Assembly: GCA_947258705.1 (NCBI GenBank)
Contig: CAMYJA010000007.1
Location: 208,424-272,423 of the forward strand
Source: an uncultured Hyphomicrobiaceae bacterium
Lineage (GTDB): Bacteria > Pseudomonadota > Alphaproteobacteria > Rhizobiales > CAMYJA01
Reading direction: 5' to 3'
DNA length: 64,000 bases
Shown here piece by piece: positions 14,767 through 46,911 of the stretch. The notes beneath the pieces were generated by a model. That model was given only the letters and a program-made list of their open reading frames with translations, was not told where the DNA came from and made no database searches. Both the position numbers and the translations under genes were made by a program. Each line of letters opens with the position of its first letter. The stretch's first letter is position 1.

Positions 14767-17430
14767 TCAACCGGCCAGCATTTCGCGTATGGCGGCTATT
14801 GCGTTTTCGGCCTTGGCTCCGTCCGGACCCCCTGCCTGGGCCATATCGGCGCGGCCGCCACCGCCCTTGCCGCCCATGGCCTCGGCGCCCGCGCGAACCA
14901 GATCTACAGCGTCAAATTCTTGTGTCAGATCGTCGGTTACGCCGACCACGATACCAGCCTTGCCGTCATCGCTCAGACCGATAATGGTGACGATGCCGGA
15001 GCCGATTTCGCGCTTTCCGTCATCGACCAGGCCGCGCAGATCCTTGGGCGAAATGCCTGTCAGCGTCCTAGCCAGGAATTTCGTGCTTCCCAGTTTTTCC
15101 ACCACCTCGCCCGCACCGTTTTTTGAAGCGCCGCCGAGCGCCAGGGCGCGTTTTGCATCGTCAAGCTGCTTTTGCAGCGATTTACGTTCCTCGACGACCG
15201 ACTTCAGGCGCTCGAGCATATTTTCTGGGCTGGTTTTCAGAACTGCAGCCCCCTCGCGCAGACGTTCCTTCTGGGCGATGAGATATTCGCGCGCGCCCGT
15301 TGCAGTCAGCGCTTCGATGCGGCGCACGCCCGACGAGACGGCCGCTTCAGAAACGATATGGAGTAGACCGATATCGCCCGTTCGCGATACGTGGGTGCCG
15401 CCGCAAAGCTCGATCGAATAGGCGGACCGGTCGCCATGCCCCTCCAGGGCCGTCCCCATGGAGACCACTCTGACTTCGTCTCCGTATTTTTCGCCAAAGA
15501 GCGCCATCGCCCCCACCTCATGGGCGTCGTCGAGCGCCATCAGACGGGTTTCAACGGGCGCGTTTTGCAGAATGATACGGTTTGACAAGCGTTCTATTTC
15601 GTCCAGTTCATCGGGGCTTACAGGCTTGGGGTGCGAGAAATCGAAACGCAGCCTGCCGGGACTGACCAGCGATCCTTTCTGCGTGACATGATCGCCGAGG
15701 ACCTGACGCAGAGCCTCGTGCATAATATGCGTGGCCGAATGGTTGGCCCGTGTCGCTGTGCGCGCCTTGTGGTTGACGTTGAGGGTTGCGGTCTGGCCCG
15801 CTTTAAACGGCCCCTTATCGACTCTGCCCTGGTGGACAATCAGATCGCCGGCCTTTTTCCTGGTATCGGTAACTGTGAAAAGCGCCTTTTCAAAAATGAT
15901 CGTCCCGGTATCGCCGACCTGCCCGCCCGACTCGCCATAGAAGGGGGTCTGGTTGGTGATGATCTCGCCTTCGTCGCCCTTTTTAAGCGCCTTGACGGGT
16001 TTGCCCTTGCGGATCACGGCGACAATTTCCCCTTCCGCCTGTTCAGCTTCATAGCCGAGGAATTCGGTGGCGCCGAACCGGTCCCTGAGGTCGAACCACA
16101 ATTCTTCCGTCGCCTCATCGCCGGAACCGACCCAGGCCTTCCTCGCCTCGGCCTTCTGACGGGCCATGGCCTGTTCGAATTTTTTCCAGCCGACGGTGAT
16201 CTTGCGCGCCTTGAGCGCGTCCTCCGTCAGGTCGAGCGGGAAGCCGTATGTATCGTAGAGCTTGAAGGCGATATCGCCCGAGAGTTCGTCTCCCTCCTGC
16301 AAGTCCGCAACTTCCTCTTCGAGCAGGGAAAGTCCACGGGCCAGCGTACCGGCGAAACGGCTTTCTTCAAGCTTGAGAGTTTCGGTTATAAGCGCATTGG
16401 CGCGGAGAAGTTCCGGGTAGGCCTGTCCCATTTCGCGGATGAGTGCGGGCACCAGGCGATACATGAGCGGTTCCTTGGCGCCAAGAATGTGGGCCTGGCG
16501 CATGGCCCGGCGCATGATACGGCGGAGCACGTAGCCGCGCCCTTCATTGGACGGCAGGACACCGTCGGCTATGAGAAAGCTTGATGCGCGCAGATGATCG
16601 GCAATGATCCTGTGGGGCACCTTGAAGTCGCCTTTGGCCTTGATGCCGGTTTCTTCAACGGACGCTTTGATCAGTGTTCGGAAGAGGTCCGTCTCGTAAT
16701 TATCGTAATTGCCCTGCATCACCGCGGCCATGCGCTCCAGTCCCATACCGGTGTCGATGGAGGGTTTTGGCAAGCTGACGCGCTTGCTTTTGCTTAATTG
16801 CTCATATTGCATGAATACGAGATTCCAGATCTCGACAAAGCGGTCGCCGTCTTCATCCACGCTACCGGGCGGGCCGCCGGGAATCTTGTCGCCATGATCG
16901 AAAAAGATCTCGGAGCATGGGCCGCATGGCCCTGTTTCCCCCATCGACCAGAAATTGTCGGATGTTGAAATCGGAATAATCCGCTCTTTCGGCAGGCCCG
17001 CAATTTTTTCCCAGAGCTGGCCGGCTTCCTCGTCTTCCGAAAAAATCGTGACAGTCAACCGTTTCGGATCGAGGTCGAATTCCTTCGTGATCAGGTTCCA
17101 GGCGAGCTCGATGGCGCGCTCCTTGAAATAATCGCCGAAGGAGAAGTTTCCGAGCATTTCAAAAAACGTATGATGGCGGGCCGTGAAGCCGACATTGTCG
17201 AGATCATTGTGCTTGCCGCCGGCGCGGACGCATTTCTGGGACGATGCGGCCTGCGTGTAGCTTCGCTTTTCCGCGCCCGTGAATACGTTCTTGAACTGCA
17301 CCATGCCCGCATTGGTGAACATAAGTGTCGGATCATTGTGGGGCACGAGCGGGCTCGAGGGCACGATTTCATGACCGTTTTTCCGAAAATATTCGAGAAA
17401 TGTGCCGCGTATGTCGTTGACGCCCGTCAT
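14767..17430 (-). CDS. alaS: alanyl-tRNA synthetase
   Basis: AlaRS, 887 residues, charges tRNA-Ala. The catalytic core begins [27 protein letters not shown]. The editing domain has the zinc site [11 protein letters not shown] and [13 protein letters not shown], and a C-terminal glycine-rich C-Ala domain ends the protein. The open frame extends 41 codons further upstream, but the family N-terminus and the ATG at 17430 mark the likely start. The upstream 500 bases separate it from recA, which has its own terminator, so alaS probably has its own promoter. Confidence 0.96.
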
Positions 17431-17854
17431 TGATATTCGTGCCTTTTCCGTGACTTTCGAGTCCGCTCCGGGACTTTCGAATCCGCGGCTTGAAGTTATG
17501 TAAGCAATCCGATTTGGCGCACCAGCGTAATTGCCCGTGCGCGCCTCATACAATCATATCAGATCACATATCCGTTTTCGCGTTGCAATAGAGAGATTGC
17601 ACAGCTCATGAAGCGAGCATATTCGTCCGCCACAGCCCGCACACTCGTTGTTTTTCCGCCCACGCCGCATTGCCAGGGCCCTGTTCTTACTGGGGGTTCT
17701 AGCGCTCCCGATTAAGACTGTCCAGCGGGCATATTGACCGGGAACGCCCAGCTATCGCTAGTCTGCCCGGCGGTCCCGCGGCCTCGCCGCGGCGGGCAAT
17801 TCCAGCATGGCCGTTCCGCGCTCGCGGGCGATGAATTTCTGAGGGCTTTTGAAA
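17431..17854. other. alaS leader region
   Basis: The region between alaS and the recA terminator has no convincing ORF or RNA gene. Close to alaS it contains an imperfect tandem repeat, GACTTTCGAGTCCGC at about 17452 and GACTTTCGAATCCGC at about 17473. Further on there is a GC-rich hairpin, CCGCGG-cctcg-CCGCGG (about 17777-17793), enclosed by TGCCC/GGGCA. These may be leader structure; I see no known regulatory RNA. Confidence 0.3.
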
Positions 17855-43632: not shown

Positions 43633-44889
43633 TTACATCCCCAGAATTTTCCGCATCGCCTTGAGGAAGCGGGCCACTTCCTGCGCCGTATTGTAATGGC
43701 AGAGCGACACCCTCACGCAGTCGTCGAGTTCGAGCGGCCCTAGGACGTTGCCGGAATACATGTCGTTTTTACGCACATGCACCCTGATGCCCTCTTCGCC
43801 GAGTGCCGCGACCATTTCGGCGGCCGGGATCGTCTTATGGCTGAAGGACAGCATTCCCTGACGCAGCGGATTGTCTATCCCGCCGATGACCTCGACCGAA
43901 TTCATCTCGGCCAGGCCCGGCTCGCCGTCAACGCCCAGGCGCATGGCATCCATCAGGGCCGTTTCCTGGACATGAATGGCCTCGCCCGCCGCCTCGATCC
44001 TTTCCCTGAGATCGGTCGAGGGGGTGAATTTTCCCCCCAGCCAATTGAAATAATCGACCACCTCGGAAAATGTCGCATAGGCCCCGGCATCGCGCGTGCC
44101 AAGTTCCCATTGATCGGGTGAGGCGCCAATAAGCTGATCATGAGGCAGCGCACTCAATCGGTCGGACACCCAGGCAATGCCGTATCCATGGCGGGAGAAG
44201 ACCTTGTAGGGTGATATTGCATAGCCGTCCACGCCATAGGCATCGATATTCATGGCCCCGTGGGCCGCATGTTGGATGCCGTCGACGATGATGTAGCAAT
44301 CGGGCGCAATCGAGCGAATGTAACCGGCGATTTCCGCCACATCCACGACCATGCCGGTGACGGGGCTGGCATGAATGATCGTCGCCAGCCGGGTGTTCTC
44401 GTTTACATGTCCCTCATAATCCCGGGCGGTTACCGTGCCTGTTTGCGAATTGTGCGGTGCCCGGACATATTCGCGTCCGGTTATTCCTGCCCACCGGTCA
44501 CAGGCGCCGACCGAGGCGGGGTGTTCGAGCGTGCTGCCCACTACGCCGCCTCCCGCGGGTGCGCCCAGCAGTGCGGCACTGATCATACGGAACAGGACTT
44601 CAGTGCCGGTCTCGCCGACAAATACGGTCCCTGTTGTCGCGCCGAATAGCGCCCTGATATCGCTTTTTCCCTTCGCGATCATGTCCGAAAGCGCGTGTGA
44701 CGCTGGATTGTCGCGGCCCTGATTGTCCGGCATCGCGGCGAGCTCCGCCGAGCGTTCGACGACGGATTTCAGCGTCAGGGCGCCGCCCGCGTTTTCAAAA
44801 AATATGCGCGGCCCCTGATACGGGCAGGCATCGACATGGCAAAACCGCTCGCGGATTTCCTCCAGAAGCGCCTCGTTGATCTCACGCAT
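43633..44889 (-). CDS. class V aminotransferase / cysteine-desulfurase-like protein
   Basis: A 418-residue PLP enzyme of the class V fold (NifS/Csd-like). It has IFFENAGGALTLKSVVE near residue 30, IIHASPVTGMVVDVAEIA near residue 196, and IVDGIQHAAHGAMNIDAYGVDGYAISPYKVFSRHGYGI, where the Lys in SPYKVFSRHG should bind PLP. No cysteine loop typical of cysteine desulfurases is clear, so it may act on another amino acid. It converges on the beta-propeller gene. Confidence 0.83.
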   Translation of the reverse strand: MREINEALLEEIRERFCHVDACPYQGPRIFFENAGGALTLKSVVERSAELAAMPDNQGRDNPASHALSDMIAKGKSDIRALFGATTGTVFVGETGTEVLFRMISAALLGAPAGGGVVGSTLEHPASVGACDRWAGITGREYVRAPHNSQTGTVTARDYEGHVNENTRLATIIHASPVTGMVVDVAEIAGYIRSIAPDCYIIVDGIQHAAHGAMNIDAYGVDGYAISPYKVFSRHGYGIAWVSDRLSALPHDQLIGASPDQWELGTRDAGAYATFSEVVDYFNWLGGKFTPSTDLRERIEAAGEAIHVQETALMDAMRLGVDGEPGLAEMNSVEVIGGIDNPLRQGMLSFSHKTIPAAEMVAALGEEGIRVHVRKNDMYSGNVLGPLELDDCVRVSLCHYNTAQEVARFLKAMRKILGM

Positions 44890-45067
44890 TCAAGTTTCCT
44901 CACGGATTTATCTGTGCCCGTCCAGGCAGAGATGTTCTTTTGTCCAGGGATCTGTATTTTGACCAGGACACCTGTATAAAGAGTGCGGCTTGCCGATAAT
45001 TGCCAATATATGTGTTTATAATTATACGCGACTTGCAAGAAGAAACAGGAACCGAGGAGGAACAGCC

Positions 45068-45385
45068 ATGGCGAATTTCATGCTGGCCTATCATAAGAGC
45101 GAAAATTCCAAGCCCCCCGAGAGCCCCGAGGCGGGTGCCGAGCATATGAACAAATGGAATGCCTGGGTCGAAGGCCTGGGCGAAATCATGGTCAATCCCG
45201 GCACGCCCCTGGGCATGTCCAGGACCGTCAGTTCGGATGGCGTCGCGGATGATGGCGGAGCGAATCCCCTGATGGGATTTTCCGTCGTTGAAGCCGACAG
45301 CATGGAGGCTGCTCTCGAAATAGCCAAATCCTGCCCGTTTCTAGAAATGGGCACCATCGAAGTCGCCGAAATGAAGCAGATGTAA
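45068..45385 (+). CDS. YciI/YCII-domain protein
   Basis: A 105-residue protein with a strong AGGAGGAAC ribosome site. MANFMLAYHKSENSKPPESP opens it; FSVVEADSMEAALEIAKSCPFLEMGTIEVAEMKQM ends it. This is the YCII/DGPF-like dimeric alpha-beta barrel fold, with the conserved His near residue 10. Such proteins are small putative hydrolases or binding proteins found beside ECF sigma factors or redox genes; neither is here. The open frame extends to 44990, but the ATG at 45068 is far better placed. Confidence 0.85.
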   Translation: MANFMLAYHKSENSKPPESPEAGAEHMNKWNAWVEGLGEIMVNPGTPLGMSRTVSSDGVADDGGANPLMGFSVVEADSMEAALEIAKSCPFLEMGTIEVAEMKQM

Positions 45386-45557: not shown

Positions 45558-45649
45558 CCGCGCATTGGCGCTTGAAAAAGCTGCGAGATTAATTACACAG
45601 GGAACCGAATTTTCTGAATTTGCGTGATGGGAAGGAAACCTCGTTAACT

Positions 45650-46819
45650 ATGCCTCTGGTCAATATGAAAGATATGCTCGCTCATGCGCACAAAAACCGC
45701 TATGCGGTCGGTGCGTTCGATCTCGTCAATCTCGATTTTCTGCAAGGGATCATGCAGGCGGCCGAGAAGGCCCGTGCGCCGGTCATCCTGTCCCTGGCGG
45801 AATCGCATTTCGAATATTTCGATTTCGAACTGATCATGGCCGCAACCGAAAAAGCGGCGATGCGCGCGCGCGTTCCCGTCGCGATCCATCTCGATCACGG
45901 CGCGAGCCTCGCCTCGGCGGTTCAGTCTATCAGGTTCGGCTGTAACGGCGTGATGGTGGACGCCTCGCATTTGTCATTCGATGAAAATGTTTCCGTCTCG
46001 CGGGAGGTTGTCCAAATGGCGCATGGCTGCGGCGTGCCGGTCGAGGGCGAGCTCGGTTACGTTCCCGGCGTGGAAGGCGAGGACGCCGAAAAACATCCCG
46101 GCGACATTCAATACACGACGGTCGAGCAGGCCAGCGACTATGTCTCCGAGACGGGGGTCGATTTTCTGGCCGTGTCCATCGGCACGGTGCACGGGCGAAT
46201 GAAGGGCGAACCCGTTCTCGATTTCGACCGGCTTGGTGAAATCAACGCAGCGCTCGGTATTCCCCTCGTCATTCACGGCGGCACCGGATTGTCGGAAGCG
46301 CAATACAGGCAGCTCATCGAGAACGGGGTTACGAAAATCAATTATTACACGGCCCTTTCCGACAAGGGCGGCGCGAAGATCATGGCCAATGCCGCTACGG
46401 GGGGCAAGCTTGGCTATGCCCACCTGACGCAAGGCACCGTCGATGTGATTGCGGAGGAGGTGGAGCGCATGATCCGCTTGTGGGGATCCGCGGACAAGGC
46501 GGGCGACGTGCTCGATCATTGCGCGCTCTGGAAGCCGGTCGAGCATCTCATTATCTACAATGCGGAAGGTCTCGATGAGGCCGGCGCCGATGAAATGATG
46601 CGCGAGGGCACGCGCATCCTCTCCGGCATACCCGGCGTCCGCGCCGTCTTTACCGGCAGCGCCATTCAGCCGGATGCCGCCTACCGCTATACCTGGCTTG
46701 TCCGCTTCTGCCACCCAATGGTGATTGAAAGCTACAAGCATCATCCGGATCATGTCGCCTTTGCCGACAATTATTTCCGCCCGGTCGCGGGCGACCGGAT
46801 CAGCATCGATTACTCATAA
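45650..46819 (+). CDS. class II fructose-bisphosphate aldolase-like protein fused to a Dabb domain
   Basis: A 389-residue two-domain protein. Residues 1-285 are a class II (metal-dependent) ketose-bisphosphate aldolase: MPLVNMKDMLAHAHKNRYAVGAFD, the zinc His pair in AIHLDHGAS, VEGELGYVPGVEGED, LVIHGGTGL and NGVTKINYYT. From about residue 296, VEHLIIYNAEGLDE to FCHPMVIESYKHHPDHVAFAD and ISIDY form a Dabb (stress-responsive alpha-beta barrel) domain. The aldolase cleaves or joins a ketose bisphosphate in sugar metabolism. The exact substrate is open, since the loop that separates fructose- from tagatose-specific forms cannot be told by eye. The ATG at 45650 follows AAGGAAA at some distance. Confidence 0.85.
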   Translation: MPLVNMKDMLAHAHKNRYAVGAFDLVNLDFLQGIMQAAEKARAPVILSLAESHFEYFDFELIMAATEKAAMRARVPVAIHLDHGASLASAVQSIRFGCNGVMVDASHLSFDENVSVSREVVQMAHGCGVPVEGELGYVPGVEGEDAEKHPGDIQYTTVEQASDYVSETGVDFLAVSIGTVHGRMKGEPVLDFDRLGEINAALGIPLVIHGGTGLSEAQYRQLIENGVTKINYYTALSDKGGAKIMANAATGGKLGYAHLTQGTVDVIAEEVERMIRLWGSADKAGDVLDHCALWKPVEHLIIYNAEGLDEAGADEMMREGTRILSGIPGVRAVFTGSAIQPDAAYRYTWLVRFCHPMVIESYKHHPDHVAFADNYFRPVAGDRISIDYS

Positions 46820-46911
46820 TGCTCATGAGGGCAAGGTGCTACGCACCGATGCGCGTTTGGTTCCCCAGTAAAGCTGGCGACTCCCCCGTAAAGATGGCGG
46901 GGTGGCGCTCG

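Follow-up and report, generated by a model that had tools for sequence, protein, structure and literature searches.

Aldolase-Dabb fusions tied to RubisCO in proteobacteria: a class II aldolase probably acting on a substrate other than its labelled sugar bisphosphate

RESULTS

The fusion gene and its two domains

The window, that is the whole stretch of 64,000 nucleotides that was analyzed, carries on its forward strand an open reading frame coding for a two-domain protein of 389 aa, whose translation contains zero internal stops. The features considered are the following:

44990..45385, plus strand: YCII-family protein, upstream of the fusion, with 264 bp between the two genes (PF03795, 30.2 bits)
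45650..46819, plus strand: class II aldolase-Dabb fusion, 389 aa and stop (ORF translation and Pfam)
45659..46498, plus strand: metal-dependent aldolase core, residues 4-283 (Pfam, residue counts, model)
46538..46816, plus strand: C-terminal Dabb barrel, with strands from residue 297 and a Pfam match at 310-389 (Pfam, model)

An earlier TTG, at 45620, lies within the same open frame as the fusion gene. A promoter scan returned zero sites before the gene; 4 terminator-like sites were found, versus a shuffled mean of 2.1, two of them just behind the gene, at 46895 and 46965. Further upstream, a cysteine-desulfurase-like class V aminotransferase (43633-44889, minus strand) is encoded divergently from the YCII gene (44990-45385, plus strand).

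The core is recognized by Pfam-A as PF01116 (F_bP_aldolase) at residues 4-283, with 284.7 bits (E 1e-84; cut-off 25.5), and membership in this family is further indicated by D82, H83, H181 and H209, present in all of the 49 fusions described below. The C-terminal part matches PF07876 (Dabb) at 310-389 with 34.6 bits (E 3e-8; curated cut-off 25); when the domain model is compared with the PDB, the Dabb protein 3bde ranks first and olivetolic acid cyclase next, and 3bde is also retrieved, at 298-388, by a PDB sequence search with the whole protein. AlphaFold2, run on the whole fusion protein with 32 aligned fusions, gave a pLDDT of 90.3 and a pTM of 0.89: in the model the Dabb domain follows the last helix of the core, and its first strand is at 297-303. 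The C-terminal 104 residues, predicted alone, also fold into a Dabb barrel (pLDDT 93.0). The first-pass annotation had described a core of about 285 residues continuing into a Dabb domain of about 90, at about 296-385, and had suggested domain searches and structure prediction as checks; both bear the layout out, with limits in agreement with the model.

The fusion is genuine. A frameshift, a read-through or an assembly artefact is ruled out, because the same full-length protein recurs in 44 of 51 other loci, and a chance Dabb match is ruled out by the score above cut-off, by the PDB profile search and by the fold. At E 0.001, the fusion gene is the sole PF07876 match in the genome of the window.

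Distribution of the fusion

How often this architecture occurs, a question already raised in the first-pass annotation, was evaluated by scanning a single genome for each species. Relatives were found at 51 loci in other genomes, with 53-73% identity in the best segment: for 44 of them the match extends from residue 1-4 to at least 385 in one open frame, while the remaining seven (L032, L044, L045, L047, L049, L051, L053) are contig-edge ends or one-frame partial matches. Residue counts refer to a set of 49 fusions, composed of the 44 complete loci, four rows from the order sample and the window; the seven partial loci were dropped.

Among the carriers, record titles mention Thiohalobacter, Sedimenticola, Ferrovum, Gallionellaceae, Ghiorsea, Nitrococcus, Thiogranum, Magnetovibrio, Roseivivax and Bradyrhizobium sp. 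BTAi1, a list with many lithoautotrophs. The hypothesis of a rare or lineage-specific fusion was rejected, since Alpha-, Gamma- and other proteobacteria all appear in the titles, and 22 cores form one group in the tree reported below. In the phylum sample the fusion is present in 4 of 398 genomes at E 1e-60, and 7 other genomes, all from one family, feature an unfused relative at 40-43% identity. Plasmid records, searched with an E limit of 1e-60, gave a single match, covering residues 1-283 only. At one locus (L045:7727-11005), CbbO and the fusion aldolase are found in one 1092-aa frame, as a result either of gene fusion or of an error in the MAG.

The Pfam entry for Dabb presumably already names an aldolase of Hydrogenophilus thermoluteolus carrying this domain. 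The architecture is also in print, and counts as known because Table 3 of PMC2942843 lists the CbbA of the A. ferrooxidans operon cbb1 (ACK80290.1, AFE_1676) with both Pfam01116 and Pfam07876. According to the relevant passages of the same paper, cbbA, cbbL1, cbbS1, cbbQ1 and cbbO1 form one transcription unit, a second cbbA, in operon cbb3, features Pfam01116 alone, and the cbb1 CbbA is a predicted FBP aldolase, with no accompanying assay; "aldolase" occurs three times, and the second domain is undiscussed in these passages. The gene is named fructose-bisphosphate aldolase in Table 2 of PMC6458275; the same paper reports that cbb1 RNA, measured on other cbb1 genes, drops with rising CO2. The A. 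ferrooxidans protein, likened here to that of the window by the printed domain listing alone, is annotated as an FBP aldolase, and its operon, with RubisCO, cbbQ1 and cbbO1, resembles many of the loci found. A limited literature search returned no published statement that the core of the fusion is of a non-FBP type. The first-pass annotation, made from the sequence alone, could include neither this printed listing nor the tie of a widespread clade to RubisCO, described below.

The aldolase active site

Residues involved in binding the metal and DHAP (D82, H83, H181, H209, N231, T234) are invariant in 49/49 fusions. The distal contacts, which bind the sugar at its far end, are replaced in the window protein, at A50, Y233, S237 and in the segment around 256-258. 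The Ser contact, made to the C6 phosphate in FBP aldolases, is Ala in 48 of the 49 fusions and Ser in one. The other three are replaced throughout the set: the position of Giardia D255 is occupied by Tyr (46) or Phe (3), that of R259 by Ala, Ser, Thr or Asn, and that of R280 by Thr (45), Ala (3) or Leu (1). Canonical CbbAs keep Ser, Asp, Arg and Arg in 13 out of 13 cases; the one encoded in the genome of the window (C2:128216-129187) shares with the fusion the fold and the metal and DHAP residues, but keeps the four distal ones and has no Dabb domain.

The Giardia numbering, mapped by counting along the alignment, agrees with the mutants described in PMC6692403. In the relevant passages of this paper, FBP is bound by R259 and R280 of the Giardia enzyme, and in the R259A mutant kcat is 14-fold lower and Km 160-fold higher. 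The mutant is cited here by these two factors, because the remaining efficiency of 0.0004% stated in the same source disagrees with them (14 and 160 give about 0.045%).

Not all four positions are equally informative. In KbaY of E. coli, whose annotation is tagatose-1,6-bisphosphate aldolase, the four are Thr, Ala, Lys and Arg; the loss of Ser and Asp alone is therefore non-diagnostic, and the two basic positions carry the weight. The 'short' comparison aldolases all lack Arg at the R280 position (7/7), yet they have R or K at that of R259. What marks the fusions is that the two basic residues are lost together, as they also are in YdjI. Three other residues, H53, H149 and R183, are kept in at least 47 of the 49 fusions and in none of 22 comparison rows: they could hold an anion elsewhere.

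With all four distal contacts of FBP aldolases (EC 4.1.2.13) replaced, three of them in 49/49 fusions, the window protein also reaches zero of the NCBIfam equivalog cut-offs. It scores 229.9 against TIGR00167, a subfamily entry named 'ketose-bisphosphate aldolase' (cut-off 215.6), while the homologue at L042 scores 198, below the cut-off. With the residues holding the far end of the sugar missing, the true substrate is probably different from the sugar bisphosphate of the labelled function.

Unfused relatives

A tree was built from 51 aldolase cores, including 22 fusions (20 of the 49 and 2 from the phylum sample, with one pair identical). The 22 fusions form one group, with support 100/100. 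Seven unfused aldolases adjoin them (98/82), followed by E. coli YdjI (99/92), while canonical CbbAs are found across the midpoint root. The branches of YdjI, KbaY and two further rows are long, and are flagged as unsure by the tree program.

All seven unfused relatives have A50, H53, Y233 and S237, feature Lys at the R183 position, and have no Arg at 257. They match residues 1-284/286 only, in frames of 287-335 aa devoid of Dabb. In 4 of the 4 regions fetched for these seven relatives, the aldolase is found in a conserved cluster (L092-L095), where a sugar-type ABC importer comes first, and the aldolase is flanked by genes for D-lyxose isomerase (PF07385) and for a PfkB kinase. The corresponding NCBIfam entry (PRK06801/NF005284) names the aldolase of L092 'ketose 1,6-bisphosphate aldolase' (577 bits, cut-off 406); the window protein reaches 273 bits against the same cut-off. 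This name may be wrong for the lyxose-operon aldolases, since the distal FBP contacts are absent from them as well. Their substrate is likely, by inference, to be a ketose-1-phosphate: if phosphorylation by the PfkB kinase occurs at C1, the compound cleaved by the aldolase would be xylulose-1-phosphate or fructose-1-phosphate, neither of which requires a distal phosphate site. The kinase could act, instead, at C5/C6.

E. coli YdjI (6ofu), annotated as L-glycero-L-galacto-octuluronate-1-phosphate aldolase, is similar to the fusions in being devoid of the distal Ser and of both Arg; it differs in having no Dabb domain, in being about one third identical and in having His at the D255 position, where the fusion has Tyr. 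By tree position and by the lost distal Ser and Arg, the fusions group with ketose-1-phosphate aldolases of the YdjI/lyxose-operon type. In structure comparisons, the best Foldseek matches of the model, ranked by E-value, are sulfofructose-phosphate and FBP aldolases, with YdjI in 15th place; among the 50 matches listed, YdjI has the highest target-normalised TM-score (0.96).

The first-pass annotation had taken the fusion as a hint of a non-glycolytic substrate. The claim gains support on other grounds, from the replaced distal contacts (three in 49/49 fusions, Ser in 48/49) and from the location of the nearest unfused relatives found in sugar operons, where a ketose-1-phosphate would be a likely substrate.

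Association with RubisCO and gene neighbourhood

RubisCO and a second aldolase were searched for in 29 genomes carrying the fusion, 24 from the 51 loci and 5 from the order sample. RubisCO (PF00016) is present in 29/29, each best match having E 1e-120 or better. In the order sample, a RubisCO match above 400 bits is found in 5 of 5 fusion genomes, versus 23 of 61 overall (p 0.0057, or 0.015 leaving out the genome of the window, both without correction for kinship). In the phylum sample, which holds only four fusion genomes, the strict RubisCO threshold is passed by 3 of the 4, versus 91 of 398 overall (p 0.039, or 0.13 without the genome of the window). In the fourth one (G323), the contig opens with a RubisCO end, corresponding to the final 35 profile positions, and the fusion comes next, at base 258.

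Neighbours were counted at 44 of 53 loci, leaving out 9 loci with less than 3 kb upstream. Counts are taken from a query-based scan, because a first clustering had lumped CbbO and canonical CbbA with the fusion. A cbb gene is found within about 10 kb at 25 of the 44 loci, RubisCO itself at 13 and a CbbR-like gene at 17; RubisCO activase genes (CbbX, CbbQ or CbbO) are located upstream of the fusion at 18. Recurrent gene orders are cbbLS-cbbQ-cbbO-small protein-fusion (L007, L009, L026) and cbbLS-cbbX-fusion (L030, L033, L034). At L042, L047, L048 and L052 the fusion is found beside canonical Calvin genes, among them a canonical CbbA at a distance of a few kb; at L042 and L052 the same Calvin cluster holds both aldolases, and a CbbY-like gene is located behind the fusion. 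No cbb gene is found nearby at 19 of the 44 loci, nor in the window, where the fusion gene stands alone. The RubisCO of this genome is on another contig, in a Calvin cluster which also includes a canonical CbbA and genes assigned by similarity to CbbX, transketolase and the phosphoribulokinase family. Within this cluster (L098; G000:C2:118000-137500) two PRK-family genes are adjacent (15566-16501 and 16821-17726), with a PFK-family gene adjoining.

The fusion clade is thus tied to RubisCO: it is found in RubisCO-bearing proteobacteria, in many cases with the genes for RubisCO and its activases close by. A role as stand-in for a missing FBA was rejected, as a second class II aldolase is present in 28 of the 29 genomes, the exception (G072) being a MAG; a role as stand-in for CbbY was similarly rejected, as a CbbY-like protein, searched for with a query from L042, is found in 27 of the 29.

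Two families of small proteins were also observed. One, of 120-130 aa, is located next to or near the fusion, either upstream or downstream, at 14 of 53 loci (for example L009:9586-9969 and L017:4530-4895); representatives tested gave zero Pfam or NCBIfam matches over cut-off, and the family may be a partner of the fusion enzyme. The other, of about 104 aa, is encoded either in the interval from RbcS to CbbQ or immediately ahead of the fusion, at 6 of 53 loci (for example L009:6064-6378); one representative, when tested, also gave zero Pfam or NCBIfam matches over cut-off.

The Dabb domain

In 31 C-termini of fusions, H299, N304, W349, Y362, H368, R377, R383 and D387 are invariant. A profile built from these sequences retrieves 3bde (1e-10) and olivetolic acid cyclase (5e-8), aligning Y362 and H368 with Tyr72 and His78 of the cyclase, in which a His close to the N-terminus is the counterpart of H299. 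Across the 49 fusions, Y362 and H299 are kept in 49/49 and H368 in 48/49. According to the relevant passage of PMC7962319, Tyr72 and His78 are the catalytic pair of the cyclase, in an aldol-type cyclisation. Matching residues are also found, in the same profile alignment, in the stand-alone Dabb protein 3bde; the His/Tyr/His residues are therefore a trait of the Dabb family rather than the sign of a special function. Both 3bde and olivetolic acid cyclase (5b08) share with the fusion domain the fold (TM about 0.80-0.85) and the aligned His/Tyr/His, while they differ in being stand-alone and about 25% identical. The conserved Dabb pocket speaks mildly against a mere dimer clamp, and fits with either a putative ligand site or a second catalytic site; regulation by a second ligand, the other option named in the first-pass annotation, may be one of its uses.

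DISCUSSION

The reported data led us to propose a function in which a class II DHAP aldolase, with a main role not involving FBP or SBP, takes part in RubisCO-linked side-product or salvage metabolism and carries a second pocket in its Dabb domain; taken as a whole, the chances that this proposal is right seem to us evenly balanced. Its parts differ in strength. It is likely that the enzyme catalyzes a DHAP-dependent aldol reaction whose substrate is neither FBP nor SBP: it would make or cleave a ketose-1-phosphate, from DHAP and an aldehyde with no phosphate, or with a phosphate located elsewhere, and its lyxose-operon sisters probably catalyze a reaction of the same type. In the cell, the fusion enzyme would not be the main FBP/SBP aldolase, and would handle a side product or a salvage sugar arising in RubisCO/Calvin-cycle metabolism; it may serve to salvage or repair by-products of RubisCO. 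The Dabb domain would dimerise and supply the second conserved pocket, for binding a ligand or for acting on the aldehyde or ketose. Points against the ketose-1-phosphate reading are the residues found in KbaY and in the 'short' aldolases, the conservation of H53, H149 and R183, the NCBIfam name of the sister enzymes and the Foldseek ranks; the tie to RubisCO is weakened by the 19 of 44 loci which, as the window, feature no nearby cbb gene, and by the small phylum sample.

The enzyme might, alternatively, be an ordinary Calvin-cycle FBP/SBP aldolase (CbbA, EC 4.1.2.13), holding the distal phosphate via H53, H149 and R183, with Dabb only stabilising the dimer. This is how the A. ferrooxidans protein is annotated in print, where its gene is co-transcribed with those of RubisCO (relevant passages of PMC2942843 and PMC6458275), and the conservation of the three residues (at least 47/49 fusions, 0/22 comparison rows) would fit, with the qualifier that H53 is also found in 7/7 lyxose-operon relatives, which feature K at 183. 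The location of the fusion beside canonical Calvin genes at L042, L047, L048 and L052 may be read in the same way; yet a canonical CbbA is found a few kb away at each of these loci, a second class II aldolase is present in 28/29 genomes, both distal arginines are gone in 49/49 fusions, and the nearest kin found are in sugar operons, rather than among FBAs. Altogether we consider this explanation unlikely. The sugar-import operons of the sister aldolases, in turn, might indicate an aldolase for scavenging a sugar of external or cell-wall origin, acquired by autotroph genomes together with Dabb, the RubisCO neighbourhood reflecting CO2-dependent expression and not a shared pathway. The loci devoid of nearby cbb genes (19 of 44, and the window) are in agreement with such a role; RubisCO in 29/29 fusion genomes tested is not, and no sugar importer or isomerase was recognized, by eye, among the recurrent neighbour clusters of fusion loci. 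We consider scavenging quite improbable.

A further hypothesis, compatible with each of the others, concerns the Dabb domain alone, which could be a passive module for dimerisation or stability, without a ligand. PDB titles describe several Dabb relatives as dimeric, and in the model the domain is placed after the last helix of the core. The alignment of Y362, H368 and H299 with residues of olivetolic acid cyclase, and their conservation in 49, 48 and 49 of the 49 fusions, argue against it, as does the catalytic role of Tyr72 and His78 in an aldol-type cyclisation (relevant passage of PMC7962319), although 3bde, having the same residues, marks them as a family trait and not as proof. A passive module is a serious contender, to be given slightly less credit than its opposite.

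Within the proposed RubisCO-linked function, a more specific version may be formulated, in which the fusion is a RubisCO-repair aldolase, splitting a pentulose 1,5-bisphosphate produced by RubisCO misfiring, for instance xylulose 1,5-bisphosphate, into DHAP and glycolaldehyde phosphate. In xylulose 1,5-bisphosphate the C3/C4 arrangement is the same as in FBP, while the phosphate is one carbon nearer, and this nearer phosphate would fit with both the lost contacts to the C6 phosphate and the conserved H53, H149 and R183. The enzyme would act alongside CbbY, a phosphatase, and either of the activases CbbX and CbbQO, and the Dabb domain would trap the reactive aldehyde. This version is a speculative one, to which we attach little probability.

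The label of second FBP aldolase is the one now current for this enzyme of the RubisCO operons of CO2 fixers. If the substrate is a different one, reconstructions of the Calvin cycle carry a wrong reaction for these organisms, and miss the real one; the missed reaction, if the proposed function is true, may be a salvage or repair step needed by RubisCO.
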